Shown piece by piece: positions 26,221-64,000 of a stretch of DNA of 64,000 nt; position 1 is the first letter of the stretch, and each line of letters starts with the position of its first letter. Both the position numbers and the translations under genes were made by a program. Source of the DNA: Cryobacterium arcticum (GTDB lineage Bacteria > Actinomycetota > Actinomycetes > Actinomycetales > Microbacteriaceae); assembly GCF_003185895.1 (NCBI RefSeq), contig NZ_QHLY01000012.1, positions 1,054,001 through 1,118,000 of the forward strand. Direction: 5' to 3'. The notes under the pieces were generated by a model. It was not told the DNA's origin. It saw only the letters and a list, made by a program, of their open reading frames with translations, and ran no database searches.

Positions 26221-26253
26221 GATTCCTGCCGCCGTCGACTCGCTGCCGCGCCG

Positions 26254-27354
26254 CTACAGGCGGCCCTGCGACCCCGTCGGCACCGGCGTCGCCGCCAGAA
26301 TGCGCCTGACCGTCTCCTCGATGAACAGGGCGCTGTCCTGGGATCGATGCCCCAGCGCCCTGGTGGTGGGCACCAGCCGGTGGCCCAACACCGCGACGGC
26401 CAGCGAATCGACGTCGTCGGGCAACACGTATTCCCGGCCGTGCAGCGCGGCCTGCGCCTTGGCAGCACGGATCAGTTGCAGGGTGGCGCGCGGACTCGCT
26501 CCGAGCCGGAGGTCCCGGTCGTCCCTGGTGGCACGCACCACGGCCACCGCGTATTCCTTCACCGCCGCCGACGCGAACACACTCCGCGCCGCCGTCATCA
26601 TGCCGCGCAACTGCGCGCCGGTGACCACGGCGTCGATCTGGGAAAGCGGACTGGTCAGATCACGAGAGTCGAGCATCGCCAGCTCAGAGGCCGAGTCGGG
26701 GTACCCCATCGAGATGCGGGCCATGAAGCGATCCCGCTGGGCCTCGGGAAGCGCGTAAGTGCCTTCCATCTCGATCGGGTTCTGGGTGGCGACGACCGTG
26801 AACGGCCTGGCCAACGGGTAGCTGTGCCCGTCTACCGTCACCTGGCGTTCCTCCATGCATTCCAGCAACGCCGACTGGGTCTTGGGGCTGGCCCGGTTGA
26901 TCTCGTCGCCGATCACGATGTTCGCAAAGATGGCGCCCGGCTTGAACTCGAACCGGCGTTCGGCCTGGTTGTAGACCGAGACGCCGGTCACATCGGAGGG
27001 CAACAGGTCCGGCGTGAACTGGATCCGGCTGACGCTGCAGTCCACCGACTTGGCCAGCGCCTTGGCCAGCATGGTCTTGCCGACGCCCGGTACATCCTCG
27101 ATGAGCAGGTGACCTTCGGCCAGGAGCACGGTGAGGGCGATCTGCACGGCCGAATGCTTGCCGTCGATCACCGACTCGACGTTGCGGATGATCGCCTGTG
27201 CGGCGCCCTGCACCTCGCCGAGGGTCACGTCGGCCTCACTGGTCACGTCGATGCCGTCCTCGTCGAGGGACGTGGCGGACTCGCGTCGGCCGGCGACAGT
27301 CGTCGCTGCAGCCGACCTGGGGTCGGTGGCCAACCGCCCCGGAAAGACGTTCAT
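26254..27354 (-). CDS. MoxR-family AAA+ ATPase
   Basis: 366 aa. Walker A is [17 protein letters not shown] (about residue 82), Walker B region [20 protein letters not shown], sensor motif [12 protein letters not shown]. MoxR proteins act as chaperone-like ATPases for vWA/DUF58 partners. A ~45-residue N-terminal extension precedes the family core, so a later start is possible. Its ATG overlaps the coaD stop (ATGA), coupling it to coaD. Confidence 0.93.
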
Positions 27355-43417: not shown

Positions 43418-44152
43418 TCAGGCCCTGGACACGTCCACGGTGAATTCGCCCAGTGTCAGGCTCTGCCGGCCGGTCAGTGGGGCGCGGATGCCGGGATCGA
43501 GCGGGGTGCGTTCGCCGTGGGCGTCGACGAGGCTGACCCCGTTGGTGGAGTGCAGATCGGTGATCCACAACGCACCGTCGATCAGCTCGATGAGAGCGTG
43601 CGACTTCGACACGGATCGGGCCGGGTCCTGCACGCTGACCATGGTGGCGGCCCGACGGGTCACGGGAGCCGGGTCCCGGCCGAGCACGATGGAACCCGTG
43701 ACCGCCACCGACTGGCCGTCGGCGAGCTCAAGCAGCCAGCCCGTGGCCACGGTCGTAACCTCTGCGGCAGGCACAGCCGCGGGCACGATGTCCATCATGA
43801 CGGTGCCGGGCAGGGCAGAACCGGGCAACGCGACGGCGTCCGGCACCATGGGCTCCGGCGGCGCGACGGGTGCAGCCGAGGGGGCGCGTGGCGGCGCTCC
43901 CAATGGCGTCGCCACGAAGGCAGGGATCGACAGCGCGGCAACCGTCGGCGCCGGCCCGGTCGGCGGCGCCGCGGCGTTGTCGTCGGAGGCGTCGTTGTCG
44001 GCGCTGGTGTCCGAGTTCGGGGCCCCGCTCACCGAAGCCGGCGGGATGACCTCCAGCGCCTTCGGATGCCGCACCCGGGCGGTCGCCTCGTCGTCAGACT
44101 CCCGCGGCGCGAACAGCCCCGGTGGGGGCACGATGAAATCCGGATTTTCCAC
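43418..44152 (-). CDS. FHA-domain protein ending the surface/signalling cluster
   Basis: 244 aa from a GTG at 44152. The first ~150 residues are Ala/Pro-rich low complexity. The C-terminal FHA domain has the phosphothreonine-binding layout GRDP...(about 165), SVSKSHALIEL and DLHSTNGVSLVD. It should bind a phosphothreonine made by the kinase at the other end of the cluster. It is 9 nt after the transglutaminase-like gene. Confidence 0.9.
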   Translation of the reverse strand: MENPDFIVPPPGLFAPRESDDEATARVRHPKALEVIPPASVSGAPNSDTSADNDASDDNAAAPPTGPAPTVAALSIPAFVATPLGAPPRAPSAAPVAPPEPMVPDAVALPGSALPGTVMMDIVPAAVPAAEVTTVATGWLLELADGQSVAVTGSIVLGRDPAPVTRRAATMVSVQDPARSVSKSHALIELIDGALWITDLHSTNGVSLVDAHGERTPLDPGIRAPLTGRQSLTLGEFTVDVSRA

Positions 44153-44161
44153 GATGCCACC

Positions 44162-46642
44162 CTACCGGCGACCGGGGCCGGAGCCGCGGCTGCCGCGCAC
44201 GTTCACCTGGCTCCAGTCCCGCTTGGACCGCAGGCGGAACCTCGCGAAGATCCGCCGCAGTCGCCCGGCAGACTTTCCAGCTGTAGCCAGGGAGGCCATC
44301 GCCGCCGTCCAGTTGCTCTCCACGACGTCGTCCTCGATCCGTTGGCCGCCGAAGACGGCGCTGTCCACCGAGTCCGCCACCGGCACCAGGCGATGCGGGG
44401 CCACGAACGCGGCGGCGTCGACGACGTCGCTGGCGCCCGAGGTATCGGCGAGCTGGGCGGCCAGTTGGGCCTCCAGGCTCACTGCCACCTGGCGGCGGCT
44501 CGACGAGCGGGGCACCTCGAAGCCGAGCTCGGCGAAGCCGTCGGTCAGCTCGGACCAGGCGCCGGCGGCGCGTTGGTCGCCGGTCCCTCGGCTGCGCCGG
44601 CGACGACGGCGACGGGACTTGAGCGCGGCGATGACCAGCAGCGGTACGCCGAGCAGCACGAGCGGAATGCCGACGGAGCCGATGACGACCCAGGCCCAGC
44701 CGGGCAGCTCGAAGTCCTTGTCCTTGTCTTCGTCCTTGGTGTCGGCGATCTCGACCGCTGTGAGCAGGTCGTCGGCCTCGTTGTCCATCCGTGGCGGCTG
44801 GCGCACCTGCGGCTGCGGCTCGGTCATCGGCTTAGGGGTCTGGTCCTGCGGCACGTCGGTCTGGTCGGGGGTGGGATAGAACGGCACCCAGCCCACTCCC
44901 TCGAACGCCACTTCCACCCAGGCCGTCACATCGGTGCCGGTGATCTCGATCGCCCCGGCTTCTTCGGGGACGTCGGGTGCGAAGCCCATCACCACCCGGG
45001 CCGGGTAGTTGAGGCTGCGAGCCATCAGGGCCATGGCGGCGGCGTATTGCTCTTCGTCGCCCACCATCTGGGTGCGGGTGAAGAGCTCGTTCAGTCGATC
45101 GGCGCCGTGGCCGGCGCGGGACGGAATGCCGTCGGAGGCGAGGCCGTGGCTGAGGAAGCCCTTGGTCTTGAGCGCCTGCTCGATCGCGCGCAGGCTGTCG
45201 ATCGGGGTATCGGCCGTGCCTGCGTACTCGATGGCCTTGGCGACCACGACGTCAGGGATGTTCTGCACTGCGGGCAGCTGCACGTCGGCGACCGGAACGT
45301 TCGCGAGGTCTTCGTCTCGGTAGGTCTGCTGCAGCATGGCGCTGACGGTGTACTGGTAGCCGGATTCCACGCCGCTGGTGAGCACTGCGGTGCCGCTTTC
45401 GGCGTTGTAGCGCAGGGTTTCGCTTTCGTCCTGGCTGGCGGCGTCGTCGAAGTCCACCGTGGTCGGGTAACCGACGCCGGGCAGCCAGACGTCTTCGTAG
45501 CCGGTGACGTCGATGGTGACGGTGCTGTCCTGGTTGCTCGTCACCAGGGACGGCGCAGGGATGGTGCGGCCGACCAGCCGGAAGCTGCCGGAGCCGCCCA
45601 CCAGGCTGTCCGCCGCGGCGACGTTCCACAGCTTGCCGTCATAGGCGTCCATGCTGGCCAGGCGCAGCATTTCGCCGGGCTGGAGCCCGGTCACGCTGAA
45701 CAGCGGGGTGTCGGCGAGGGTCTTGGTGTACTGCCGGAAACCGGCCAGGGGGCTGGGGAACTCAAGCGGGTCGAATGGCGGCTGGATCTCCTCCCGCAGC
45801 ACGTACCGGCTCTTCGGGTCGGGGGCGAGTACCCCGCCCACCAGGGCGCCGATCAGCACGGCGCCCAGAACCAGGGTGGCCGTGCCCAGGATCTTGCGGC
45901 GGAACAGCCTGGCCGCTCCCTGGGCATCCGCGCTCTCGGTCTTGGTGCGGCGCCAGCCGATCCAGACGATGGCGACGACGGCGAAGACCACACCGCGAAG
46001 GCCCGCGAAGTAGGTCTTGTCGGTGCCCATCAGGATGCCGGTCAGGTAGAGCAGCACCGGACCGATCAGCAGGATGCCGGTGCGCCAGACCGTGCGCGGC
46101 CGGGTCGGCAGCCAGCGGCTGGCCAACATGGTGCCGGCGAGGGCGATCAACCAGGCGGCGAAGTACGGCAGCACCGGCATGTAGTACGGGGCTTCAACGG
46201 GCGTGCCGAGGGTGACGATGTCCTTCCAGCCGAAGACAGCGCCGAGGGCGAGACCCGCCGTGGACGACACGCTCGGGAACACCCCGAGCAGCGCCTCACC
46301 GGGCATGGTGAACGGGGTGCCGAGCAGGAAATACGCCAGGATGCCGGCCAGCACGCTGGTGACCACGCCCAACCGCAGGGAGTAGCCGAGCATGGCGATG
46401 CCGGTGCCGACGACCAGGCCGCCGAGTCCGGCGACGAGGAAGTTGTAGTCGCCGAAGGAGGTCTCCAGGCCGAGCACGCCGAGCAGCGAGAGCACGCTGA
46501 GCACCGCGACGTCTGTCCACGCCGCGCGCGGGAACGGCCGCCAGGCGGTCCCAGGGCCGGTCGGCCGGTCGGCGCGCGGTTTCGGGGCTGGCGCCGGCCG
46601 GGCGGGCTTGCCCGAAGCGGCGGTGCGGGTGAAACGGCTCAT
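44162..46642 (-). CDS. Transglutaminase-like membrane protein lacking catalytic Cys and His
   Basis: 826 aa. It has the same plan as the protein at 22299-24752: several N-terminal helices (about 45-260), an external transglutaminase-fold region, a late helix (~655-680) and a basic cytoplasmic tail. Aligning the segment AAAMALMARSLNYPARVVMGF with the paralogue puts Glu530 where the paralogue has Cys517, and DVTAWVEV puts Thr573 at the position of His565. It therefore looks like a pseudo-enzyme that kept its fold. The ATG overlaps the DUF58 stop (ATGA). Confidence 0.9.
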   Translation of the reverse strand: MSRFTRTAASGKPARPAPAPKPRADRPTGPGTAWRPFPRAAWTDVAVLSVLSLLGVLGLETSFGDYNFLVAGLGGLVVGTGIAMLGYSLRLGVVTSVLAGILAYFLLGTPFTMPGEALLGVFPSVSSTAGLALGAVFGWKDIVTLGTPVEAPYYMPVLPYFAAWLIALAGTMLASRWLPTRPRTVWRTGILLIGPVLLYLTGILMGTDKTYFAGLRGVVFAVVAIVWIGWRRTKTESADAQGAARLFRRKILGTATLVLGAVLIGALVGGVLAPDPKSRYVLREEIQPPFDPLEFPSPLAGFRQYTKTLADTPLFSVTGLQPGEMLRLASMDAYDGKLWNVAAADSLVGGSGSFRLVGRTIPAPSLVTSNQDSTVTIDVTGYEDVWLPGVGYPTTVDFDDAASQDESETLRYNAESGTAVLTSGVESGYQYTVSAMLQQTYRDEDLANVPVADVQLPAVQNIPDVVVAKAIEYAGTADTPIDSLRAIEQALKTKGFLSHGLASDGIPSRAGHGADRLNELFTRTQMVGDEEQYAAAMALMARSLNYPARVVMGFAPDVPEEAGAIEITGTDVTAWVEVAFEGVGWVPFYPTPDQTDVPQDQTPKPMTEPQPQVRQPPRMDNEADDLLTAVEIADTKDEDKDKDFELPGWAWVVIGSVGIPLVLLGVPLLVIAALKSRRRRRRRSRGTGDQRAAGAWSELTDGFAELGFEVPRSSSRRQVAVSLEAQLAAQLADTSGASDVVDAAAFVAPHRLVPVADSVDSAVFGGQRIEDDVVESNWTAAMASLATAGKSAGRLRRIFARFRLRSKRDWSQVNVRGSRGSGPGRR

Positions 46643-47940
46643 CGGTGTACCCGTCGGAGAAGTTTGGGCAGGTCGGCGAGATCGCCGATGGTGATGACCG
46701 TGAGGCCGGACACCGTGGACAACCGGGATTGCGCCCCGGGTTCGATGCGGAACGCGAGGGTGGTGGCGTCCTTGCCGAAGAGCGTCTGCGCGGCCCGGAA
46801 TTCGGTGAGGTCCATCAGGGAACCGGCGATCATCATGACCACACTCGGCGGCGGCAGGCGGCGGGTCGCGGCCCTGGCGAACTCGCGCAGGCTCGGAAAG
46901 AGCCCTGAGACGGCTTCGATGCGGGAGGTGTCGTCGAGCAACGCGACCGGGGTCGCGGTGCGCAAGCCGAGCTTCTCGGTGACGACGCTGAGACCGGTGC
47001 CGTCCCGGATGACCTGCAGGGCCAGCGACGCCGTCACCGACACCGCGAGTTCGAACTCGTCATCGGTCGCGTAGTAGGCGGTCTCCGATGTGTGCACGAT
47101 GGTGAGCTGGGTGCGGCGGGTCTCTTCGAACTGGCGCACCATCAGCTGGCCGGTGCGGGCCGACGTGCGCCAGTGCACGTTGCGCAGGGGGTCGCCGGGC
47201 TCGTAGGCGCGCAGGGCGTGGAAGGAGATGTCGTCGCTGGTGATCTTCTTGGTGATCTCGCCCTCGAGGTCGCGCATCAGGCCGGCGGCGGACGACGCGA
47301 TCCGGGTGGTCACAGGGTGCACGAACAGTTCCACGGCCTCGGTCCAGCGCACGGTACGCCGCATCAGCCCGAGCTGGTCGCCACGCACCGAGATGGCCGG
47401 GCCGGCCACGATGACCGCGCGGCGCTGGGTGGGCACGGCGAAGAGTTCGTCGTGCTCGGCGCCGGCAGCCAGGCCGGGGATGACGAATTCGGCGAGACCG
47501 GATCCCACCGGCAGTTCCATGCGGGCGGCCAATAGGGCTCGCTCGCCGGTGTTGGTGACGGTCATCTGGCCGAGCGCGCGTTCGCCGGCGACCACGCGGT
47601 GCGGGTTCAGCTGCAGGTCGACCTTGTAGGTGGCCCGGCCGACGATGAACGGCACGGCCACCAGCAGGGCGGCCAGCAGCGTCGTGGCCAGGTAGGTGAA
47701 TTCCACCCAGCCGAACACGACGCTCACGATGGCGGCGCCGATGGCGCCGAGTAGCACGAGCCGGCCGGCCGGGCCGACCACCGCGAAGACGGGTCGGATG
47801 CGCCCCCACAGTAGGGCGACAACTTGGCTAAGCAGCCGCCAAGCGTTGGCGCCCGCCGCCCCGAGCGCGCGCCCGACCGATCTCAGGGCGTGTCTGGCCG
47901 GTGAGATTCGTGCGGGGCCACGCTCGGCGGTGCGCTTCAT
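46639..47940 (-). CDS. DUF58 domain protein, surface cluster copy
   Basis: 433 aa. Two hydrophobic helices near residues 58-100, then the DUF58 signature RAYEPGDPLRNVHWRTSARTG (about residue 240) and a vWA-like region. The signature region is recognisable in both copies but the rest differs clearly from the protein at 24739-26220, so it is not a recent duplicate. It is joined by ATGA overlaps to moxR upstream and the transglutaminase-like gene downstream. Confidence 0.92.
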   Translation of the reverse strand: MKRTAERGPARISPARHALRSVGRALGAAGANAWRLLSQVVALLWGRIRPVFAVVGPAGRLVLLGAIGAAIVSVVFGWVEFTYLATTLLAALLVAVPFIVGRATYKVDLQLNPHRVVAGERALGQMTVTNTGERALLAARMELPVGSGLAEFVIPGLAAGAEHDELFAVPTQRRAVIVAGPAISVRGDQLGLMRRTVRWTEAVELFVHPVTTRIASSAAGLMRDLEGEITKKITSDDISFHALRAYEPGDPLRNVHWRTSARTGQLMVRQFEETRRTQLTIVHTSETAYYATDDEFELAVSVTASLALQVIRDGTGLSVVTEKLGLRTATPVALLDDTSRIEAVSGLFPSLREFARAATRRLPPPSVVMMIAGSLMDLTEFRAAQTLFGKDATTLAFRIEPGAQSRLSTVSGLTVITIGDLADLPKLLRRVHR

Positions 47941-48905
47941 GCTGCGCGGAAGGCGGGAGGAGCCACCTCGACAAGGATGCGGCTGACGATGTCCTCGGCC
48001 GTGACGCCGGCGAAGTCGGCTTCCGGGTCGACCATGATGCGGTGCGCGAGCACCGGGATGGCCAGGTCGCGGATGTCGTCGGGGCTCACGAAGGTGCGAG
48101 CCTGCGAGAGCGCCCAGGTCTTGGCGGCGCGGGCGAGGGCCAGGGCGCCTCGCATGCTCACGCCGAGGGTCGAGGAGACGTCGGTGCGGGTGGCGGTGAC
48201 GATCTCGTTGAGGTAGCCGAGCACGGCGGCATCCACGAACACCTCTGAGGCGAGCTGGGCCATGGTGACCACGGAGCTGGAGGCGATGATCGGCGTGATG
48301 CCGGCATCCCGCGCCCGGTTCGACGAGTCCAGCAGTAGCGTGACCGCGGTGTCGTGGTCGGGGTAGCCGAGTGAGGTCTTGAACAGGAATCGGTCGAGCT
48401 GGGCTTCGGGCAGCGTGTACGTTCCGGCCTGCTCGACGGGGTTCTGGGTGGCGATCACCATGAACGGGCTGCCGACCTCGTGGCTGATGCCGTCGACGGT
48501 GACCCGGCCTTCCTCCATCACCTCGAGCAGTGCGGACTGGGTCTTCGGGCTCGCCCGGTTGATCTCGTCGGCGAGCACGATCGACGCGAAGATCGGTCCC
48601 TTGTGGAACTCGAAGACTCCCTTGCCCTGGTCGTAGATGGTGACACCGGTGACGTCGGAGGGCAGCAGGTCAGGCGTGAACTGGATGCGGGAGTGCGTGC
48701 CGTCCAGGGTGTTGGCGAGGGCCTTGGCGAGCACGGTCTTGCCGGTGCCGGGAAAATCCTCGAGCAGAACGTGGCCGTTGGTGAGCATCGCGGCGACGAC
48801 CAGGCGGATGACATGTTCCTTACCGAGGATGGCCTGCTCGACATTGCCGACGAGCTTGCCGAATGCCTCGGCGAACCAGTCTGCCTGTTCCTGTGTGACG
48901 CTCAT
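47937..48905 (-). CDS. MoxR-family AAA+ ATPase, surface cluster copy
   Basis: 322 aa from the ATG at 48905 (MSVTQEQADWFAEAF). Walker A EDFPGTGKTVLAKALAN, Walker B region [20 protein letters not shown], and IATQNPVEQAGTYTLPEAQ are typical. It corresponds to the AAA-ATPase gene of the bifidobacterial PFNA cluster. It lies 85 nt after the first giant gene. Confidence 0.93.
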   Translation of the reverse strand: MSVTQEQADWFAEAFGKLVGNVEQAILGKEHVIRLVVAAMLTNGHVLLEDFPGTGKTVLAKALANTLDGTHSRIQFTPDLLPSDVTGVTIYDQGKGVFEFHKGPIFASIVLADEINRASPKTQSALLEVMEEGRVTVDGISHEVGSPFMVIATQNPVEQAGTYTLPEAQLDRFLFKTSLGYPDHDTAVTLLLDSSNRARDAGITPIIASSSVVTMAQLASEVFVDAAVLGYLNEIVTATRTDVSSTLGVSMRGALALARAAKTWALSQARTFVSPDDIRDLAIPVLAHRIMVDPEADFAGVTAEDIVSRILVEVAPPAFRAA

Positions 48906-48990
48906 TCGTTGGTGTCCGTTCTGTTGGTCTGTAGTCGAGTGCAAAAAAGTCGGGGTCTGGATGTGCCGTGGTACCGGCCGGTCAACGCCA

Positions 48991-51900
48991 TCACTGCGCA
49001 TTCCATTCGGCGCCGGAGATCTCGTTGCTGTACAGCACCGCACCGTCGCTCACCCGGGTAAGCCGAACCTGGATTCTGTCTCCGGCGGGCCGGCTTCCGA
49101 GGGTGTTCGTGAGCTCGATGGTGTCGGTTACTCCGAGCGTGTAGGTGCTCTCGGAGGTTGATCCGCCCGTCACCTGGGTGGTGATGCGGTAGTCACCGGG
49201 CACGTAGTCCGTATAAGCGACGTTCACGCGGTGGCAGATGTTGGAGTCGCTGCAGCCCGGAACGGAGGCCCCGGCGCCCTTGCGGATGGTCGCCGTGGGC
49301 GGGGGCGGCGGCGGGGTGGGCTGCGGGGTGGCTACATCCGACGAGGTCCACTCGCCACAGCCCCGCGGGTTGCATGCCTGCACCCGGTATTGGTAGGGCT
49401 GATCGATGGTTCCGATGGCCGATGCCGACAGCGCGCCGGAGGTGGAACCGTTCGCGGCGCTTCCCTGGATCCACTCGTAGTTGTAACTGCTCACCCCGCG
49501 CCCGCCGTTACTGCCCGGCGCCGCCCAAGTGAGGCTGAGCTCGCCGGTGCCCTGCCCCGGCGCCTTGAGCGTGGCACTGGCGGGGGCTCCCGGCTTGCCG
49601 TATGGCGTGATCGTGTTGCTGCCGGCGGAGGCCGTCGAAGCGCCGATCGCGTTCCGGGCGGTGACGGAGAAGGCATAGTTGCTGCCGTTGGCCAGGCCGG
49701 TGATCGAGTGGGTGCCAGCATTTGGCACCACGATGGATCCACCGGACCAGCTGATGGTGTAGTCGATGATCGGCGAGTTGTTCGACGACGGGGCGGTGAA
49801 GCTCACGGTCGCACTGGCGTCGCCTTCCACGGCCACCGGAGCGTTAGGGGCATCCGGGTTGTTGCGGATCACGAAGGTGATCCTGGCTGTGGTCTGCCTG
49901 GCGGGGTCGCCGGTGGCGTCCTTGATCTCGTAGACAACCGTGAGGGTGCCTGTGGCGCCGGATCCGGTTTTCACGGTGACATCGGTGCCGCTGAAGGCAA
50001 CGGTGGCCGTGCCGACCTGCTGCTCGATCTTGGCGCCGACGACAACGAGGGGCTTGCCGTCCTTGGCGAACGGGTTGTAGTCGTTGTCGAGCACGGGCAC
50101 GGTGACCGTGGTGCTCGGCCGGGTCTCGATGCCGTTGCCGTTGGGACCGGCGTCGTCCACGGCCTGGGGCACGGGTCGGGTCGAGGAGACCACGGTCACG
50201 TCGACCGAGCCGGGCACGGTGAACTCCTTGTAGGTCACCGTGAACGTGAGTGTGACCTTTGCGCCGGGTTGGGTGCCGAGCGGCGAGGAGATAGTGAGTT
50301 CGGCGCCGCTGAGTGACGCGGCGACCTTGCTGTCCATGCCATCGAGCGACCCGTAGCTGACCTTTTGGATGATGTCGGGGTTGGGGTGCCCGGTGGAGGT
50401 GCGCAGGTTCACGACCTGGGCGCCCTCCCCCGCTTCGACCGTGACCTTCGACGGTGTGAAGGTGGGTGCGACGTCTTCGAAGTTGGGGTCGCCCACGGTG
50501 ATCGGAATCGTGAGGGTCGCCTGCACACCCTTCGGGTCTGAGGCGCTCGTTCCGTCGGTCACGACAAAGGTCAGCGAGGCCTCCCCGCGGTACTCCGGCG
50601 CGGCGACGAAACTCAGGCTCCCGGTGCCGGTCATGGGGTTGGATCCGTCGGTGTTGGTAGCCGTTGCGCTGATCAGCAGGGCCGGGCGGCCGGACGGCAC
50701 CTCCACGATGTCGGCCAGGGTCCAGCTCTTCGAGCCGTTCATCTTGATCACCTGCGGGCCGATGTCCTTCAGGAACGGGGGCGGGAAGACCTCTTCCTCT
50801 GGGGTGGGTGTTGCCGTCGGTACGTCTTCGGGTTGGGCCGGCTGAGGGGTCTCGCTCGGCTCCGGCTTGGGCTTGGGCGGCACGATGATGAAGGCCGTCG
50901 CACTGAGCTTGTCGAGCTCGTTGGTGAGCCGGTAGGCGATCGCCTGGCGTTCAAAGGTGGGCTCGACCCGCACGGTGCCGCCTTGCTGGATGTCGCCGGA
51001 ACCAGCGTTGGGTCCTTCGAGGCTGATGGCGAGGTCCTCGATCAGGCCGCTGGGATTCTCGGCACCCTCGAGCACGTCGACCTCGACGGCCTGGCCGGAT
51101 TCGACCTCCTCGGGTTCGACGAAGTGGTCGATGGCCACGGGGTACTGCGCCTGGGCGTCCTCGGTGACCTTCACCTGCACGAAGGCGGTATCGGCGCCGC
51201 CGTGGCCGTTGGTGATCTCGTACCGCAGCGTGTAGGTGCCTTCTTCGGCCGGGGCCTCCACGATGATGCGGCTGCCGTCGACGGATGCCGTGATGCCCGG
51301 GTCCACCTCAGGTAGTTTCTCGGTGAGGGTGAGCTTGTAGCCGTTGGGGTCGGAGTCGTTGAGGGCCACGGGGATCGACCCGGTGCGGCCGGGCTTGATC
51401 TCGATCGAGTCGTCGACGGCGTTGGGAGCGAGCAGGGTGGGCGGGCGCGGGATCACGCCGATGCGCACCGCCCCTTCCGCGGTGGACCCGAGGGTGTCCT
51501 CAACCTGGTAGGTGAACGCATCCGTGCCGGCAGTGCCCGGGTAGGCCTCGTAGATGAAGAAGTCGCTGCCCTGGTCGACGATCCGGCCGAGCTCCGGCGC
51601 GCTGGTGACGTCCTTGAGGTACACGGAGTCACCGTCGGGGTCGATGCCGTCGAGGGGAACCTTCACCTTGATGGTGGAGTCCGCGAAGGTGCGCATGGTC
51701 AGCGGCAGCGGCGTGGGCGGGCGGTTGTTCTTCTCGTCCATCGCGATGACCGTGAATCGCACCGTGGCCGTTGCGGTCTCACCGAAGGCGTCCCGAATCG
51801 TGTAGACGACGCTGTAGGAACCGGCCTCCTGGGGTGCCTGATAGCGCACCTGGGTGCCGGTGACGAAGGCCAGGCCGCCGACGTTCGCGGTGTCGGCCAG

Positions 51901-54360: not shown

Positions 54361-54441
54361 CCGATTCCCCCTCATTCGTTCCTGGTACGTACTGCATGTG
54401 TGACGAGCTCATTATTATTTTCTGCTGGTGCCGGGACTTTC

Positions 54442-54477
54442 GACACTGGCCCCCTGACCGGCTATTACGCTAACACG
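54442..54477 (-). promoter_or_regulatory. Conserved promoter-proximal block upstream of copy A
   Basis: About 35 bp nearly identical to 60013-60047. On the minus strand it reads CGTGTTAGCGTAATAGCCGG at the start and ends in the complement of GACACTGGC. TAGCGT fits a -10 box; 17 bp upstream there is no -35 consensus and that part is not conserved. The block starts about 80 nt before the GTG. Confidence 0.7.
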
Positions 54478-54490
54478 CGAACCGGTCCCG

Positions 54491-54517
54491 GCCTCATGGG
54501 GAGGCGTCCCCATAGGC
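54491..54517 (-). terminator. Hairpin after copy B
   Basis: Seven-bp perfect stem (54496-54502 with 54507-54513) and 4-nt loop, extended by GCCT/AGGC pairing with one bulge. It lies 8 nt after the copy B stop and before the conserved block of copy A, so it probably separates the two transcripts at least in part. Confidence 0.6.
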
Positions 54518-54524
54518 CGCATCG

Positions 54525-57500: not shown

Positions 57501-59912
57501 GGGCACCGTGACGATGTCGCCGGCGCGCACGCTCACGGTGTCGTCGACGGCGACGGGCGGCTGATGCTTCACCAGCGGCGGCACCGGCACCACGGTGACA
57601 CCCGCAGTAGCCGTCTTCTCGCCGTCGCTGATCGTGTAGGTGAACTGCACCTGCTCGGTCAGGGCAGCCGTGGCCGTGACGCGCAGAACCGTATTGGTGA
57701 GGATTTCCACGGTGACGAGGTCTTCGGTCGCGCTGAGGTCCACGGACTGCACGGCGAGCACCCGGCCGCCGGGTGAGACGTCGTTGTCGAGCACCGGAAT
57801 GGTCACGGGTTCAGCGGCGCGCAGGTACGCGGTGTCCTTCACCGCGATCGGCGGCAGGATCTCGGTCGGGTTCTCCAGAACGTCGACCCGGATCAGCCCG
57901 ACGCTGGCGGTGGCGCCCGCACCGAGGCTGTAGGTGAAGACGTAACTGGCAGCCTTGTTCGATGACACCGCGATGGTGCCCCGCTCGAGGTTGGGCACTG
58001 CGGACAGATCGTTGGAGACCTCGTTGACGCCGATCAGCGACAGGGGTTCACCCGAGGGAGTGACATCGTTCTTCAACGGTTCGATCAAGACGGTCTCGCC
58101 CCGGAACACCGTGGCGAAATCGGGTGTGCCAATCGGGTTGAGGGTGCCCGGCGCCTTCACGTCGACGGTGAGCACCCCGGTCGCGGTGAGCAGGCCGTCG
58201 GAGACGACGAACTGCACCTCCTTGACCCCCAGCTCAGCCGTCTTGGACTCGAAAGTCACAAAGCCTTCCGGGCCGAACCGCACCCCGTCGCCGGTGGTCG
58301 GCGAGGCGGAGACCAGGTAGATGTCGTCACCGTCGGGGTCGATCCAGTCCGACAGCACGTTGTAGCTCACGATCTGGCCCTGCTCCACACTGATCGCCCC
58401 GGCCCGGTTCGACACCGGCTCCAGGTTCTCCTCGAGCGGGCGCATGGTCACGTTGACCTGCGCCTCGGCGACCGCACCGCGACCATCCGCCACGGTGTAC
58501 CGGAACGACACCGTTCCGGCCGCATCCTTCGCCGGGGTGAACTGCAGGGCCCGGCCCCCGTCGATGTAGTCCAGCGCGCCCTGCGACTCCGAGAATCCGC
58601 TGACGTTGATCACCGTGAGCACGTCACCATCGGGGTCCGTGTCGTTCTCGAGCACCGGCAGCACCGTCGTCTTGGCCGGCCGCACACCATACTCATCGTC
58701 CCGCGCGATCGGCGCCCGGTTCACGTTGGTGCGCTCGGCCAGGGTGTCCTCGAACGATTCCTGGGCGGCCTTCTCGGTGCCGTCCTCGGCGTCCTCCTCC
58801 TCGGGCGGGGTCACCTCTTCCCAGTTCTCCACCAGGCGCATATTGGCGTCGACCAACCAGACGTTGCCATTGGAGAGGTTGTTGAGAACGATCACGTTGC
58901 GGTTCACCCGGAACTCGAGCACTGAGCCCTTAGTGTTCTTTTCGATGTTCTCCCGCAGAACCTTTTCGCCATCGCAGTCGGCCAGGTAACGTTGCCCGCC
59001 GGCCCAGGCCGCGTGCGCGCACCCGTTCAACCACACCGGCGACGACACCGATTTCGGATCGGTCACGGGCGCGTCCAACTTTGCGTCGACGGTGACGACC
59101 TCGCCGCCATCGAGCGGCACCTTCAGCAACGCCGCACCGGTGGCGACAAGCACGATCTCGTTCTCTGCGCCGGTCTGCTGCAGTTTGAGGGCCCCGGTGG
59201 GCAATTTCAGGGTGGTGCCGTCGACGACCAGGCGGTCATTCTCCGGGTCGAGCACCACCGGCTTCTCCCCCACGGCAGCGATCTGAAACTCACCGAGCTT
59301 GGGCAGTGTGCTCTCGGTGAGCCCGGCGGCCGGGTCGTCGGCCGCGGCGTCGTAGGTATACACCGTCTTGTCGGCCGCAGAGGCGCCGAACACGACACCG
59401 GTGGGAGACACGGCGATATGCCCGTCAGCTCCGAGAGTCATCACGGGATCGGAGGCCTTGGGGTCGAAGCTCAGCTCTCCGGCGGCATTGATCACCCATA
59501 CCTTGCCCGACTTGGGCTCCATCACGGCGATCGAGTCGCCGCCGTAGACGATTTCGGAACCGGGTGAGACGTCCACCCTTTCGATCAGGGTGGTGAAGGC
59601 GGGGTCGATACGCTCGATCGTGCCAACGCTCTCGTCGATCAGGAAGACGTCATCGCCGTCCTGCACGATGTCGAACGAGCTCGACGCGGCGTTGACCGAG
59701 GCGTTGAGCTCTTCGATCTGCCGGTTCAACCGGCCGGCGAGCAGCTGCTTGCCGTTGGTGACCCAGACGTCGCGCGCCGTGAGGTCGACATCCGTCACTG
59801 GGAAACCCTCGTGCAGAACCGCGAACGACAACGGCACGCCGGCCAGCACTGTCAGCGCCACCACCGATGCCGTGGCCTTGCGGCCGCGCAACCACGAACT
59901 CAGGGTCCCCAC
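54525..59912 (-). CDS. Giant cell-surface Ig-like/FN3 protein, copy B
   Basis: 1795 aa from a GTG at 59912 with AAGGGGGAA upstream. Same order as copy A: anchor, propeller-like region, cadherin/Ig-like modules, Pro/Thr/Glu spacer (longer, about 1165-1220), further modules and two FN3 domains. Long stretches are identical to copy A (for example around residues 375-450), while the propeller has a patch around 190-260 that differs. The last ~85 residues are unrelated to copy A: four Cys and a LVDAICHSVRRGVDYYYFKI segment ending in GWFIRMSD, reminiscent of an SH3b-type module. Binding role is unknown. Confidence 0.88.
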   Translation of the reverse strand: MGTLSSWLRGRKATASVVALTVLAGVPLSFAVLHEGFPVTDVDLTARDVWVTNGKQLLAGRLNRQIEELNASVNAASSSFDIVQDGDDVFLIDESVGTIERIDPAFTTLIERVDVSPGSEIVYGGDSIAVMEPKSGKVWVINAAGELSFDPKASDPVMTLGADGHIAVSPTGVVFGASAADKTVYTYDAAADDPAAGLTESTLPKLGEFQIAAVGEKPVVLDPENDRLVVDGTTLKLPTGALKLQQTGAENEIVLVATGAALLKVPLDGGEVVTVDAKLDAPVTDPKSVSSPVWLNGCAHAAWAGGQRYLADCDGEKVLRENIEKNTKGSVLEFRVNRNVIVLNNLSNGNVWLVDANMRLVENWEEVTPPEEEDAEDGTEKAAQESFEDTLAERTNVNRAPIARDDEYGVRPAKTTVLPVLENDTDPDGDVLTVINVSGFSESQGALDYIDGGRALQFTPAKDAAGTVSFRYTVADGRGAVAEAQVNVTMRPLEENLEPVSNRAGAISVEQGQIVSYNVLSDWIDPDGDDIYLVSASPTTGDGVRFGPEGFVTFESKTAELGVKEVQFVVSDGLLTATGVLTVDVKAPGTLNPIGTPDFATVFRGETVLIEPLKNDVTPSGEPLSLIGVNEVSNDLSAVPNLERGTIAVSSNKAASYVFTYSLGAGATASVGLIRVDVLENPTEILPPIAVKDTAYLRAAEPVTIPVLDNDVSPGGRVLAVQSVDLSATEDLVTVEILTNTVLRVTATAALTEQVQFTYTISDGEKTATAGVTVVPVPPLVKHQPPVAVDDTVSVRAGDIVTVPVLENDYHPDSATMTVLPDLAETKDAGGLAFVTGNSVRYQAPKDAGSYSVVYEITDAFQETATATVRITVVAQNDDANQPPTPLPLTMRTFADSTIKVQVPLDGIDPDGDSVYLNDVTSAPLLGRIVDQGSDFFIYEAYPGTAGTDSFTYQVQDTLGATAEATVRIGVIPRPVTLLAPNAVDDSIEIKPGRTGSIPVVLNDSDPNGYKLTLTEKLPEVDPGIVASVDGSRVIVVAPAEEGTFTLRYEITNGHGGSDTAFVQVKVTQDAKAIPPTAIDHFVESDDVLSGAPVDVNVLDGAENPGGLIDELVITLEGPQSDAGEVRGNGIVRIVPSYDRQAIAYTLTNDLDDLSATAFIIVPPMPKPEPVEPEAAESPDPEQTDPAAEPTPTPSETPPPTPTPTPEETFPPPTLKDLPEQIIKVNGSKSWVLADIVDVPSGRPALLLSATATNSDGSNPMTGTNTLKFVAAADYRGPGSLTFVVTDGTSADDPQGNQATLTIEITIGDPNFEDVAPTFTPSKLTVEAGEGSQVVNLRSSSGHPNPDIIEKLSYGSLTGATTDVSASISGAELTVSSPLGTKPGTKVTLKFNVTYKEFTVPGSVDVTVVSSTRAVAQAVADNGPNGNGIETTPSSTVDIAVLENDYNPFAQDGKPLEVVGATIEQDVSGGTASISFTSSGVSIKTGPGATGTLTAVYSILDATKDPARGTTGRITLVIRDRPDSPNPPSATEGDAMATVSFEAPSSNNSPITGYIISWNGGNKEVPSAGRYDIGGLTNGTGYSFTVVARNAKGDSTPSGGSATVTPYGVPGAPASASLLAAADGTGALTLDWAAPGNTGGRGVTSYEYTWVEGGAANGSTSGSQRATATGNANTQYRYQVKACNPRGCGEWATSNAATPVTPPPPPPPWTPSNPSTVTKTTCPESVASYENNNLNSSHGCTDNPRGYLQPGTLVDAICHSVRRGVDYYYFKIEDGSYDGWFIRMSDTTSAPVSDC

Positions 59913-60012
59913 CCAATTCCCCCTTGCGTGTTCCGGCCAGCGAGACCGATTACTCCCTCAGGGGGCAACCGTCCATGGGTGCCGATCACGCGTCCCTTCG
60001 AGTGGGACGTAT

Positions 60013-60047
60013 GACTCTGGCACCTGACCGGCTCTTACGCTAACACG
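60013..60047 (-). promoter_or_regulatory. Conserved promoter-proximal block upstream of copy B
   Basis: Matches 54442-54477 at nearly every base (TTAGCGTAA then one difference, then AGCCGGTCAGG), while sequence on both sides differs. It starts about 100 nt before the GTG of copy B and lies 26 nt beyond the stop of the FHA-like/HTH gene. Confidence 0.7.
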
Positions 60048-60072
60048 GCGTTGGGCGACCCCCACACGGGGA

Positions 60073-60864
60073 TCACTCCCCTGTCGCCCCGATCTCGGCT
60101 TTGGGCGGGGCAACGGACGCGTCGGCGGCCGCGGCCAGTCTGGAATCCTCTGCGGCCCGGTCGAGCAGAACGATGTCGTCCACGCTGACCAGCCGGGTCG
60201 CGACAGCGTATTCCACCAGCCGGGCGCGCCGGTTGGTAGCCAGGTTGCCGGTTCCACCGCGCAGCCCGGCCACACCGAGCTTGTCGAGTTTGCTGCAGAC
60301 GTTGTCGAGTTTGCGGTTGAAAGTCGTCATGCTCCATCCCAGTCGTGCTGCGGCCTCCGCCGAGCTGGGGATGGCGCCGCGGCCGGGCACGGCCTGGGTC
60401 AGGATGCTCTCCGATAGGGAGACGATGAGCAACCGCTGGCTGGTGGTGAGGGTGACGGGCAGGATCGTGGTGGTGCCGCCCTCATTGGACGCCGACAGGG
60501 ACGTGTTGTAGAAGTCGTCGGCGGCATGAATGGTGAAATCGTAGGTAGATGAACCGGCGCTGAACATCACGTGCATGGTTTGGAAGACGATCGGCAACTT
60601 GGCGCCGGGGGCCAGCCAGGCCTGGACGGTGCCAGTGCTGTCGGACACCGTGGCCGAGAGCAGATTGCCCACATTCGCGATCCACCACATGCCGAAGTCC
60701 TCGTAGAGCCGCAGGAATGTGCGGTGCAAGTACGGGTTGTCGTCGATGGTCAGGTCGGACTCGCGCCCGATCGAGAAAGCGGTTCCGGTGTCGATGTTGT
60801 ACCACTCGCCGCAGAATTCGACGCGCAGGGGCGCTCCCGACGGGGTCTCAACGGTTGCAGGCAC
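60073..60864 (-). CDS. Putative FHA-like/helix-turn-helix regulator
   Basis: 263 aa from a GTG at 60864 with GGAGG at ideal spacing, overlapping the kinase stop by 17 nt. The first ~100 residues look FHA-like: FSIGRESDLTIDDNPYLHRT and WWIANVGN fit GR...S/H...N of the fold. The second half has a helix-rich region with EAAARLGWSMTTFNRKLDNV, which resembles a helix-turn-helix. If both are right, the protein binds a phosphothreonine and DNA. Cognate DNA may be the conserved blocks upstream of the giant genes. The family is not known to me. Confidence 0.7.
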   Translation of the reverse strand: MPATVETPSGAPLRVEFCGEWYNIDTGTAFSIGRESDLTIDDNPYLHRTFLRLYEDFGMWWIANVGNLLSATVSDSTGTVQAWLAPGAKLPIVFQTMHVMFSAGSSTYDFTIHAADDFYNTSLSASNEGGTTTILPVTLTTSQRLLIVSLSESILTQAVPGRGAIPSSAEAAARLGWSMTTFNRKLDNVCSKLDKLGVAGLRGGTGNLATNRRARLVEYAVATRLVSVDDIVLLDRAAEDSRLAAAADASVAPPKAEIGATGE

Positions 60865-62518
60865 GGTTCGCCTCCGAGATCTTGCCGTCGGCACGCTGCA
60901 GGTAGATGTCGAGGCACACGGTGCTCCCGGGAACAATCTCGCTCACGGTGATGTCGGCGGTCTTGCTGAGTGTGGGTTGGTTCGGGGTTTCGGCGCGCGC
61001 CCAGCGGTAGACGTCGCCGTCTTCCGGGTCGGGGTTGCTGACCGTGAAGGTCACCTCGGTGCCGTCATCGGAGGTTGCCGTGCCGTCGAGCACCGGCGCG
61101 GGCACGCCGGTGACGACGTTCGCCCCACCCGGGTCGACCGCCACGGGTGAGGTCGTGGGGGTGAGGGCGGAGTCGTCGGCGGGCGTGAGGGTCAGCGCGG
61201 CCACGACGGCCCCGACCAGCACCACGGCGGCGACGATCGACCCGATCAGAACCAGACGGCGTCGACGAGGCGACCCGTGCTCCTGGTCATCGTGACGGGC
61301 CTCTGGTGCCTCGGCAGCCGGTTCCTGGGCTCGGACCGCGCCGCGGGGGCGCACGACAGTTCGTTCCCGCACGGGTTCGCCCGTGCCGGGCGTCCGGCCG
61401 ACTGGTTCTCTACTGCCCGGTTCGATCACCCGGGCGCCGCGAACCCGGGTCGCGTCAGCCTCGGCCGCAGTGGTGGCCGGCGCAGCCACGGGTGCCGGTG
61501 CCTGGGCGGGTATCGACACCACTGACCGGGCGCGGGTCTCGTCGTCGCCCGCGGGGGCATCCGGTTTCACGTGCTGTGGGCCGGCGATGGTGGGGATGTC
61601 GATGCCGGTGGGCGCGTAGCCGAGTTCGAGTTCGACCCGCTGCAAGGCGCGGGCGAAGTCGACGGCGGTGGCGAATCTGTCGTCCCGCCGGGTGGCCATG
61701 GCCTTGGCCAGCACCGCGACGAGGGAACGGGGAACGTCGTCCCGATCGATCGGCGTGATCGCGCCGCGTTCGATACGACCGATCAAATCAAGGGTGCCGT
61801 TGCCGCGGCCACGGATCTCGAACGGGGTCTGGCCGGCCAGCAGGGTGTGGATGGTGGCCGCCAGCGAGAACACGTCGCTGCGCACATCGGGCCGGGGGTC
61901 GTCTTCGAACATCTCCGGCGGCGACCACGGCACGCTCATGCCCACCGATTGGCTCTCGCCGGTGCCGGTGGACTCGGACCCGGCCGGACGGTGGCCGCCG
62001 GTGCTGGTCTGCACGGGCAGTTCCTCGTCGAGGCTCGACGAGATGCCGAAGTCGGTCAGTGCGGGCCAGCCGAAGTCGTTGGTGAGCACGTTGGCCGGCT
62101 TGATGTCGCGGTGCAGGATGCCGGCGGAGTGGGCGGTGGCGATGGCGCCCGCCAGGCGGACCCCGGTGCGCAAGGCGTCGTCGACGCCGAACCGTTCCCG
62201 CTTGTAGCGCTCCGCCAGGCTCGGCCCGGAGCAGTGCTCCATGACGAAGTACGGCCGGCCGTCGCCGGCGACGTCGGCGTGGTAGATCGTGACGATGTAC
62301 GGATGCGTCGACAGTTGTGCCATCAGGTTCGCTTCGTCGACGAACTGCGCCTGACTGGAGGGGTTCAGCTGTTCGGTCAGCAGCACCTTCACCGCTACCC
62401 GGCGGCGCGGCAGACGTTGCTGGTAGAGGAAGACGTCGGAGAATCCGCCGGAACCGAGGATCGAGACGAATTCGTAGCCGGGCAGTTCGGGTGCGACGGA
62501 GGGTGCGCGGCGCATCAC
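60848..62518 (-). CDS. PknB-type Ser/Thr protein kinase with C-terminal membrane anchor
   Basis: 556 aa. Kinase motifs: LGSGGFSDVF (Gly loop, about 21-30), Lys44 in VAVKV, Glu/Asp triad in HRDIKPANVL (Asp138, Asn143) and DFGIS (Asp156). A low-complexity linker leads to one membrane helix (about 435-460) and a small outer domain with a fibronectin-like TSDDGTEVTFTVSNP strand. The start is GTG (62518) or ATG (62515), overlapping the FHA stop by a few bases. It is the counterpart of the pkb2 kinase in the PFNA cluster. Confidence 0.95.
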   Translation of the reverse strand: MMRRAPSVAPELPGYEFVSILGSGGFSDVFLYQQRLPRRRVAVKVLLTEQLNPSSQAQFVDEANLMAQLSTHPYIVTIYHADVAGDGRPYFVMEHCSGPSLAERYKRERFGVDDALRTGVRLAGAIATAHSAGILHRDIKPANVLTNDFGWPALTDFGISSSLDEELPVQTSTGGHRPAGSESTGTGESQSVGMSVPWSPPEMFEDDPRPDVRSDVFSLAATIHTLLAGQTPFEIRGRGNGTLDLIGRIERGAITPIDRDDVPRSLVAVLAKAMATRRDDRFATAVDFARALQRVELELGYAPTGIDIPTIAGPQHVKPDAPAGDDETRARSVVSIPAQAPAPVAAPATTAAEADATRVRGARVIEPGSREPVGRTPGTGEPVRERTVVRPRGAVRAQEPAAEAPEARHDDQEHGSPRRRRLVLIGSIVAAVVLVGAVVAALTLTPADDSALTPTTSPVAVDPGGANVVTGVPAPVLDGTATSDDGTEVTFTVSNPDPEDGDVYRWARAETPNQPTLSKTADITVSEIVPGSTVCLDIYLQRADGKISEANRACNR

Positions 62519-63879
62519 TCCTGCCCGACGGTGATGGTGATTCCGCTGCCGAGGTCGACGACGGTGCCCACGATGACGGCGGTGGGTTCACCCTGGCGCA
62601 GCTTCTGCGCCGACTTGCCGGGCAACACCACCAGGGTGCCGTTGCGGGAGTGCAGGTCGGTGACCACGACGGTGTCGCCTTCCACGGTGAAGTGGACGTG
62701 GTTGCGGGACACATCCTGGTCCGCGCCGCCGAGGCTCACCAGCCGGGGAACGAGATCGCCGGACATCTTGCTCACGCTGGGAGCCCGGCCCACCCGGATG
62801 GGCTGGGTGAGTGGTTCCCGGGTGCCGCTGGGCAGCAGTAGGTAGAGCTGGGGGCCGACGGGGGCGGCACGGGCCGGCGTCGGCTTGCGGCGCTGGGAGT
62901 CACGGAGCTTCTGGATGTCGCCGCTCATGACGGTGTGCCCGTCGTGATCACCCGGTTCGTCCAGGTCGGCGACGGCACCCGGGTCCGCGGTGGAATCGGC
63001 CGGTGCGGCTTCGGCGGCAGCCGGCCCGTCGGATTCGTCCTCTGCCTCAGGACGCACCGCGGCTTGCTCGACGCCGCGCATGACGGTGGCGCCGAACAGG
63101 TGGTCATACCCGTCGCTCGGTGTGCTCCCCACCGCAGTGGTGGCGGGTGCCTCTGCGGCCGGGATGTCGGCGTCGTCCCCGGCCGGCCGGAGGTCGGTGA
63201 TGGTCTGTTCGCTGGCCGGCTCGTCGGTCGGCGGCACGGCGGTGGGCCGGGGAGCAACGGCCAGTGGCGCCGGCGCTGTCGTCGGTGCCGCGGTCGTGGC
63301 CGGGCTGCTGGCCGGGGTGGGCGGCTCGCCGATCCGGGCGGGCGCTGGCGCGACGGCGGGTCGCACGGAGGCGGGGGCAGCGGTGGCGTTCGTGCCGGCC
63401 GGCTCGAGGGTGAGCTGCAGTCGGCGGGCCCGGACCATGCCGCGCTCCAGCGGCAGGGCGAGGGCGTCCTGCCTGTCGGTGGCATCGGCTGAGCGCACGT
63501 CAACATGCGTCACGCCGTCAACCGAGCGCTCCACCCAGGTGGAGATGCCCGTTCCGGTGAGCAGAACGTCTCCGGCCGCGGTGTCGAGGCTCACCCGCAC
63601 AGTGCCCCGCACGATAACACGCACGGTGGCCGGCAGGTCCTGACTCCAGGCCAGCAGGGCGAACGGAGGCGTGCGCGACAAACCCCCGGCAGTGAGCTCG
63701 TCGAGGACCGCGCGCATGCCCTGGTCGTCGGCACCCGGTGCGGACTCCCCCAGGCTCGCCCAGATTCTGGCCGCCGCGGCCGCGTCCTCCGCGGGCAGCA
63801 ACACCAGGCGGTCGCCCGTGGTCGCCGCCAGCCAGTCGCCCACGTTGTCGTCGTCGTACGAAAGCACAGATCCCCCCAT
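62515..63879 (-). CDS. FHA-domain protein with unknown N-terminal domain
   Basis: 454 aa from the ATG at 63879; a GTG 12 nt inside (63867), behind GGGGGGA, is an alternative. Residues 1-165 form a folded region I do not recognise. Residues 165-360 are Ala/Pro/Thr-rich low complexity. The C-terminal FHA domain carries VGRAPSVSKM, SRNHVHFTVEGD and DLHSRNGTLVVLPG. It is likely a phosphothreonine receptor for the downstream kinase. Confidence 0.88.
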   Translation of the reverse strand: MGGSVLSYDDDNVGDWLAATTGDRLVLLPAEDAAAAARIWASLGESAPGADDQGMRAVLDELTAGGLSRTPPFALLAWSQDLPATVRVIVRGTVRVSLDTAAGDVLLTGTGISTWVERSVDGVTHVDVRSADATDRQDALALPLERGMVRARRLQLTLEPAGTNATAAPASVRPAVAPAPARIGEPPTPASSPATTAAPTTAPAPLAVAPRPTAVPPTDEPASEQTITDLRPAGDDADIPAAEAPATTAVGSTPSDGYDHLFGATVMRGVEQAAVRPEAEDESDGPAAAEAAPADSTADPGAVADLDEPGDHDGHTVMSGDIQKLRDSQRRKPTPARAAPVGPQLYLLLPSGTREPLTQPIRVGRAPSVSKMSGDLVPRLVSLGGADQDVSRNHVHFTVEGDTVVVTDLHSRNGTLVVLPGKSAQKLRQGEPTAVIVGTVVDLGSGITITVGQE

Positions 63880-63904
63880 CGTTTCGCTTGAGTCTGGTTG
63901 TTGT

Positions 63905-64000
63905 CTACTGATTCGGTTCGCGCGGCCGGGTGTCTTCGAGATCGTGGTGCATCCCGCTCGACCGTTCCCGGGTGACATCGGGATCGTCGCCGAGATCTCC
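63905..64000 (-). CDS. C-terminal tail of an upstream gene, probably a PP2C phosphatase
   Basis: 31 codons and a TAG, running off the right edge. The tail is hydrophilic (rich in Asp, Arg, Glu). It ends 25 nt before the FHA gene and is in step with the operon. A PP2C-type phosphatase usually precedes such kinase/FHA genes, but nothing visible proves that. Confidence 0.4.
   Translation of the reverse strand, partial: GDLGDDPDVTRERSSGMHHDLEDTRPREPNQ

Follow-up and report, generated by a model that had tools for sequence, protein, structure and literature searches.

The 64,000-nt window analysed here (G000:C9:1054001-1118000, in the 4.3-Mb genome of Cryobacterium arcticum) carries a PFNA-type cluster of ten genes, all on the (-) strand. 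Open frames and Pfam matches gave the order PP2C phosphatase, FHA protein, Ser/Thr kinase, P5, two giant genes in tandem, MoxR, DUF58, TgpA-like protein and a second FHA protein, P5 being a candidate regulator with an FHA domain and helix-turn-helix (HTH)-like helices. We consider it rather probable that this cluster builds fibres with variable tips and that P5, acting via a palindrome, switches the fibres jointly with a type VII secretion system (T7SS). The new parts are the spread of the cluster, the exchange of giant tips, the loss of the catalytic cysteine of the transglutaminase and, above all, a promoter geometry common to giant and T7SS genes. A testable control element would tie the giant FN3 proteins and the actinobacterial EssC-like T7SS, both unexplained, to one candidate regulator. 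An initial annotation of the window had proposed a phosphorylation-controlled surface fibre; it is supported in part, and it missed the probable co-regulation with T7SS, the tip exchange and a second PFNA-type cluster in the same genome.

Palindromes before giant and WXG-type genes

A search for the TgpA-like (TG) protein in 150 genomes of the family gave matches in 116. Among the matches listed, a window-like group had at least 44% identity and another group about 31–37%, with a few at 38–42% between. We designate the former (≥44%) type A and the kind found in the second cluster type B; type A loci were read, and the 38–42% group was left out. P5 was present in 46 of the 54 genomes whose type A locus was read (L012 and L013 counted as one gene) and missing from the type A loci in the other eight (G130, G023, G122, G111, G052, G177, G158, and G155), where the P5 profile gave no match even at E 10 (positive controls, 1.2e-138 and 7.1e-130).

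Upstream of each window giant stood a promoter-like element, with a palindrome whose end lies 23 nt ahead of the -10. A 23-base form of the stretch common to the two gaps, allowing up to three mismatches, was found at only these two places in the genome. Of 46 giants, comprising the window genome's own and those from outside the genus, 37 had TG[TC]TANNNT in the upstream region, with 0.8 expected from shuffles and a maximum of 6. The palindrome ATGGGGA-N4-TCCCCAT, upstream of the -10, matched at 12 or more of 14 bases before 25/59 P5-positive giants vs. 1/13 others (8 of type A without P5 and 5 of type B or C; Fisher 0.024), and shuffles gave a mean of 0.02 and a maximum of 1/72. Among the 31 giants scoring at least 11, the palindrome ended 23 nt from the TA of the -10 at 23, 24 nt at one, and 32–33 nt at six, one giant having no -10. 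The 32–33-nt spacing is about one helical turn further than 23 nt. In a test for an alternative symmetric site in P5-positive giants without the consensus, the best of five registers reached a mean of 3.6/7 vs. 2.0 over other offsets, partly as a selection effect. A generic scan for sigma-70 promoters and terminators yielded no excess over shuffles (one promoter-like hit at 54443-54414, mean 0.9; eight terminator-like hits, mean 7.9). The predicted elements before each giant make a single transcription unit doubtful. The view that most genes overlap or nearly touch held within FHA-kinase-P5 and MoxR-DUF58-TG (and for PP2C-FHA, if the first FHA gene starts at the ATG at 63978) but not for the gaps of 160, 149, and 85 nt upstream of giant1, giant2, and MoxR.

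Across the source genome, the palindrome (up to two mismatches) was found at four places: an exact copy at giant2, two one-mismatch copies 4.6 kb apart, and a two-mismatch copy at C9:1033852; a reversed control gave one. The one-mismatch copies precede a WXG100 gene (PF06013, 5.1e-16) and a small WXG-like gene. Their neighbours encode a T7SS_signal protein (7.6e-6, just below the cutoff) and a 1491-aa protein with FHA and FtsK/SpoIIIE ATPase domains (FtsK_SpoIIIE 5.8e-53; EssC-like TIGR03928 1.7e-151, below the NCBI equivalog cutoff). Both marks of a T7SS, an FtsK/SpoIIIE-type EssC/EccC ATPase and a WXG100 substrate, were present in this locus, which is remote from the window cluster; no WXG100 or FtsK match was obtained with Pfam in the cluster itself.

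In 19 P5-positive genomes, which had been picked for palindromes at their giants, the exact degenerate site occurred at 50 places (18 genomes having at least one), compared to one place in 10 other genomes (the eight type A genomes without P5 and two without type A); the reversed control gave a single place in all 29 genomes. Giants (16) or WXG-type genes (26) accounted for 42 of the 50 sites. The fetched non-giant loci (21, including the P5-negative control G122, whose site lies elsewhere) showed 26 of 35 sites at WXG100 or WXG-like genes, one (G118) immediately before an EssC-like open frame, and one (G076, L173:3119) less than 100 nt before the cluster PP2C gene, which hints at self-control of the P5 operon in that genome. 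The spacing from palindrome to -10 at the 26 T7SS sites was 22 nt (14) or 23 nt (10), with no -10 at two.

A second test located T7SS regions by the EssC-like gene alone and not by the palindrome. It covered 26 P5-positive regions (20 without a palindrome at their giants and 6 others) and 7 regions from genomes lacking type A or having a P5-free locus. WXG-type genes were recognised in 22/26 and 5/7 of these, respectively; within the stretch analysed, none was recognised in G126, G143, G132, and G089 or in G158 and G007. The palindrome (12–14 of 14 bases) preceded at least one WXG-type gene in 22/22 P5-positive genomes vs. 0/5 others (Fisher 1.2e-5), and TAnnnT followed 22–23 nt beyond it in 20 of the 22. 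The best site in the P5-negative regions scored 11/14 (G052) and had no -10. The EssC-like gene itself (E <1e-200) was matched in 39/46 P5-positive genomes, 4/8 type A genomes without P5, and 3/25 genomes without type A, counting G189 and G118, in which it lies in several pieces. Judged by coordinates, among the matches listed, 12 genomes from 8 genera had it no more than 22 kb away from their type A TG gene. In L158 (G189), the EssC-like gene was split across frames.

The P5 model (mean pLDDT 86.1) has the FHA domain first and the HTH-like helices last, and model comparison bore out the FHA fold. Mean column identity was 64% over 33 members. P5 had no Pfam match at E 0.01, and its sequence profile had no credible match in PDB; weak HTH_8 profile matches were obtained for 20/33 members (best E 0.0045). 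P5 is the protein that had been annotated as putatively DNA-binding, a role that the weak profiles and the modelled helices suggest. In EmbR, an FHA transcription factor of Mycobacterium, the DNA-binding part comes first, and P5 differs in the reverse arrangement.

FHA domains bind phosphothreonine peptides, which points to the kinase and PP2C as setting the activity of P5; this pair would run the system via the FHA proteins. P5 most likely binds the palindrome upstream of the giant and WXG100 promoters. The palindrome has a fixed position, with its centre near -44 and spanning the place where a -35 would lie, which suggests an activator site. Acting from there, probably as an activator, P5 would switch fibres and secretion together.

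Several observations weigh against joint control by P5. Its HTH part was unmatched in the fold search, which covered the FHA part only. The canonical SRxH, a motif typical of phosphothreonine-binding FHA domains, was not seen by eye in P5, which makes direct switching by phosphopeptides uncertain. The palindrome scored below 12/14 before 34/59 P5-positive giants, and 23 P5-positive rows with a -10 scored under 11 at the register. A type C giant (G176) has the palindrome in a P5-free locus, and the P5-negative genome G122 has an atypical site. The T7SS occurs without P5 in the four of eight type A genomes mentioned above, and this EssC-like gene was not matched in 7/46 P5-positive genomes. Absence of P5 was judged from loci of about 20 kb, and the genomes are related and non-independent, the association tests having no kinship correction. 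It is conceivable, though rather unlikely, that the palindrome is the site of another regulator which merely tracks P5, with the PFNA cluster and T7SS belonging to a wider envelope regulon. The unconfirmed HTH, the majority of P5-positive giants without the site and the site at the type C giant agree with such a regulator; the complete association at T7SS promoters argues against it, and so does the narrow set of targets, since only eight exact sites lie away from giants and WXG-type genes and even these include the EssC-like and PP2C ones.

Giants and the exchange of their tips

Two complete tandem giants had been annotated, and this was confirmed: they are 80% identical across 1695 aa and divergent after that. 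Their description as FN3 proteins needs correction, since they consist mainly of Big_9/cadherin-like Ig repeats; each has one Pfam fn3 stretch, and a second FN3-like stretch was seen by eye only. The base is a predicted beta-propeller (structure model covering 58713-59870 of giant1), located on the outer side according to topology predicted by eye; the base sequence profile had no credible match in PDB. Among named relatives, those nearest for giant1 were Cryobacterium zongtaii and C. lactosi (best segment 78%). With about 11 Ig-like units, the stalk would by our estimate reach across a Gram-positive wall. In the favoured reading, each giant would be a fibre anchored in the membrane, with a beta-propeller as its base, Ig-like repeats as its stalk, and an exchangeable tip for recognition.

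The stalks were conserved, but the tips, about 85 residues long, were replaced between sister species. In four sister pairs (G183/G203, G186/G165, G158/G155, and G188/G168), the tips were 0.23–0.38 identical at a stalk identity of 0.95–0.98; in the remaining three pairs, with stalks at 0.96–0.99, tip identity was 0.71–0.86. DNA identity in the four pairs fell to 0.37–0.59 over the last ~300 nt and had recovered to 0.94–0.97 in the window whose centre lies 225 nt beyond the stop codon, whereas in the control pair G153/G189 it dropped no lower than 0.86. A milder drop (0.73–0.75) started ~700 nt before the stop in G183/G203. The copies with the Cys-rich (S) tip showed no drop in G183/G203 (0.91–0.96) and a drop to 0.64–0.65 in G186/G165; tip exchange is therefore not limited to B tips. 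Tip similarity also clashed with stalk kinship: G158 and G188 had tips 0.76 identical at a stalk identity of 0.83, and the tip of sister G155 (stalk 0.95) was only 0.27 identical. Tip clustering, run with coverage limits, paired the Cys-rich tip with a different tip in 9/9 doubled genomes of the genus. Elsewhere, tandem giants in L114, L115, L123, and one G091 pair were 0.17–0.24 identical in the last window (4/4 pairs compared).

Tips that are exchanged while the stalk stays fixed suggest that the giants recognise a partner which itself changes. Profile searches against PDB found the B tips weakly filamin-like (E 8e-4) and gave no credible match for the S tips; Pfam gave weak matches only. 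An SH3-like nature of the S tip was unsupported by these searches. The idea of tips as contact toxins was rejected, as an immunity gene has no room in the 149 nt between the giants or the 85 nt before MoxR.

Less probably, the giants are structural scaffold or integrity proteins of the cell wall rather than recognition fibres, and the T7SS link is envelope housekeeping. The frequent control of wall growth by kinase clusters, the propeller predicted for the base, and the lack of a known ligand here would suit a scaffold; exchangeable tips on conserved stalks and the pairing of unlike tips, within the genus and in other families alike, would not. Fast evolution of the tips in place under positive selection, without cassette exchange, is quite improbable: positive selection is reported for bifidobacterial PFNA genes (PMC6803598, in part), but the sharp fall and recovery of DNA identity in the four sister pairs and the conflict between tip similarity and stalk kinship speak against it.

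With recognition fibres switched by P5, a tentative further step is that the PFNA cluster serves as the contact arm of T7SS antagonism or communication; the fibres might bind particular neighbours, and phospho-regulated P5 might turn on both fibres and WXG100 secretion. If this is true, an environmental contact system would have come first, and the host-immune role in bifidobacteria would be a late use of it.

The window pair showed no recent gene conversion: identity at 4-fold sites was 0.42–0.75 up to residue 1700, comparable to that with an orthologue. Conversion was clear in the giants of G153 (0.98–1.00 across residues 300–800). In the tandem giants of L115, from another family, residues 151–300 were identical (1.00) with flanks at 0.71 and 0.86, a pattern pointing to conversion of the base in that family too. 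The giant gene of L071 (G168) contains an internal stop.

Gene set, spread, and the MoxR module

The coordinates of the cluster are given in Table 1. Gene order and common direction, as annotated initially, were confirmed by Pfam, the complete PFNA-type set (kinase, giant, MoxR, DUF58, TG, FHA, and PP2C) was matched, and the phosphatase that had been named with a question mark proved real. Almost the whole PP2C gene lies outside the window, and the remainder was taken from the adjoining genome sequence. Start codons were set by overlap and homology, those of the first FHA gene and the kinase being uncertain. A relationship of the kinase ectodomain to the FN3 parts of the giants was rejected (pairwise profile comparison probabilities of 4.5% and 0.6%).

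Table 1. Features of the PFNA-type cluster and its upstream elements (window positions).
Feature	Position	Strand	Evidence or remarks
PP2C phosphatase gene, 3' end only	63905..64000	-	PP2C_2 E 2e-11 on L012:6905-7789
FHA protein 1	62515..63978	-	FHA E 2.3e-7; canonical SRNH motif by eye; start uncertain
Ser/Thr kinase	60848..62518	-	Pkinase E 8.7e-34; by eye one transmembrane (TM) helix and ~100-aa ectodomain
P5, predicted regulator	60073..60864	-	FHA domain and C-terminal HTH-like helices
Operator-like inverted repeat before giant1	60066..60083	-	11/14 consensus bases; overlaps P5 stop codon
Extended -10-like element of giant1	60037..60045	-	TGTTAGCGT
Giant1, 1795 aa	54525..59912	-	TM helix (by eye), predicted beta-propeller base, Ig-like stalk, fn3, Pro-rich hinge, Cys-rich S tip
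Giant1 tip, last 85 aa	54528..54782	-	S type (Cys-rich)
Operator-like palindrome before giant2	54496..54513	-	ATGGGGACGCCTCCCCAT; 14/14
Extended -10-like element of giant2	54467..54475	-	TGTTAGCGT
Giant2, 1794 aa	48991..54375	-	plan as giant1, other tip
Giant2 tip, last 85 aa	48994..49248	-	B type (the exchanged one)
MoxR AAA+ ATPase	47937..48905	-	AAA_3 E 6.1e-62
DUF58 protein	46639..47940	-	PF01882 E 1.2e-13
TgpA-like protein	44162..46642	-	TgpA_N/Transglut_core; catalytic Cys, His, Asp replaced by E, T, Y
FHA protein 2	43418..44152	-	FHA E 1.5e-6

The order PP2C-FHA-kinase-P5-giant-MoxR-DUF58-TG-FHA recurred in the 20-kb stretches around type A genes. Variants had PP2C and FHA downstream of TG (L030 and L052), three giants in tandem (L032/L077), an additional giant upstream of PP2C (L035), or a duplicated giant-MoxR-DUF58-TG unit (L057/L058); in L049/L050 (G033), types A and B were adjacent on one contig. 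A giant base profile built from 24 sequences matched 39/345 genomes of the class (E 1e-10) and 179/297 sampled genomes of the order (E 1e-6; 53/94 genera). The order HEAD-MOXR-DUF58-TG was found in 17/20 loci from 12 other families, the exceptions including L119 without a MOXR match and L123 with MOXR-DUF58-TG ahead of two giants. P5 was found in families f5, f47, f49, and f53. Tandem giants, counted by eye among the matches listed, occurred in at least 16 genomes of four families. As the order is conserved across genera and the genes are not scattered, the arrangement is not due to chance. With tandem giants and P5 this widespread, the idea of an elaboration special to this genome is not supported. 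In L109 (G668, family f48), base and MOXR matches lay within one 2195-aa open frame, either a fusion or a frame artefact.

The bifidobacterial PFNA operon comprises pkb2-fn3-aaa-atp-duf58-tgm with prpC and fha, and its FN3 giant has 1994 aa, a TM segment, and a variable C-terminal region, MoxR being a substrate of Pkb2 (PMC8430577, PMC10688814, and PMC12607495, in the sections available). The window cluster shares with it the kinase, giant, MoxR, DUF58, and TG genes, in the same order and in one direction, and accessory PP2C and FHA genes. It differs in P5 and a second giant inserted after the kinase, FHA and PP2C located upstream, promoter-like elements before the giants, a T7SS-linked palindrome, and its wide spread; the bifidobacterial giant has two FN3 domains near the C-terminus, and here one Pfam fn3 stretch per giant was matched and a second FN3-like one discerned by eye only. 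Homology of the base domain was seen in f48 genomes (1.7–3.1 Mb), probably Bifidobacteriaceae, in which two of three loci (L110 and L111) had the order KIN-HEAD-MOXR-DUF58-TG-PP2C. The accessible text of PMC10688814 states that PFNA is exclusive to bifidobacteria, and no description of PFNA outside them was found in the portions of the literature searched; a mycobacterial moxR operon is said to resemble it (PMC12067865, in part). On these data, PFNA is no longer confined to the bifidobacterial, host-immune niche supposed for it.

The tgm product is described as a putative transglutaminase (PMC6803598, PMC8430577) and presumed also to be a cysteine protease (PMC8430577); the available parts of both papers held no mention of a lost catalytic Cys. 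We aligned 70 TgpA-like sequences, one best match per locus, to the window TgpA at 22299-24752, which retains Cys and His (Cys, His, Glu) and served as the control; three rows cut short at the Cys position were dropped. The catalytic Cys was missing in 67/67 PFNA proteins, with E, Q, D, A, or S instead (S in the three f48 proteins). His was kept in 10/67 and Asp in 22/67; all 46 type A rows had T or S in place of His. The window protein resembles TgpA-type transglutaminases in its TgpA_N and Transglut_core domains and differs in the absence of the catalytic Cys of an active enzyme. Covalent cross-linking by the PFNA 'transglutaminase' is thus called into question, and MoxR, DUF58, and the TgpA-like protein without a nucleophile would most likely form a module for fibre assembly or chaperoning, not a cross-linker. 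Compared with the MoxR-vWA-beta-propeller ternary conflict systems (PMC7159879, as far as its text was available), bpMoxR matched at 39.9 bits (cutoff 27), AAA_3 being far stronger, and the propeller sits here on the giant's predicted outer side, by topology read by eye.

The second PFNA-type cluster, of type B, lies on another contig of the source genome (L010:9253 to L011:6962). It encodes FHA, PP2C, a kinase, a 2004-aa giant (35% identical to giant1 in the main match), MoxR, DUF58, a TgpA-like protein, and a zinc-ribbon/FHA protein, followed by an EssC/EccC-like FtsK/SpoIIIE gene (7.4e-75, below the cutoff). Other genomes also had an FtsK match close to a type B TG gene, judged by coordinates among the matches listed. 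The window also contains a separate MoxR-DUF58-TgpA set (22299-27354, (-) strand), near RecG, RNase III, and YceD genes.

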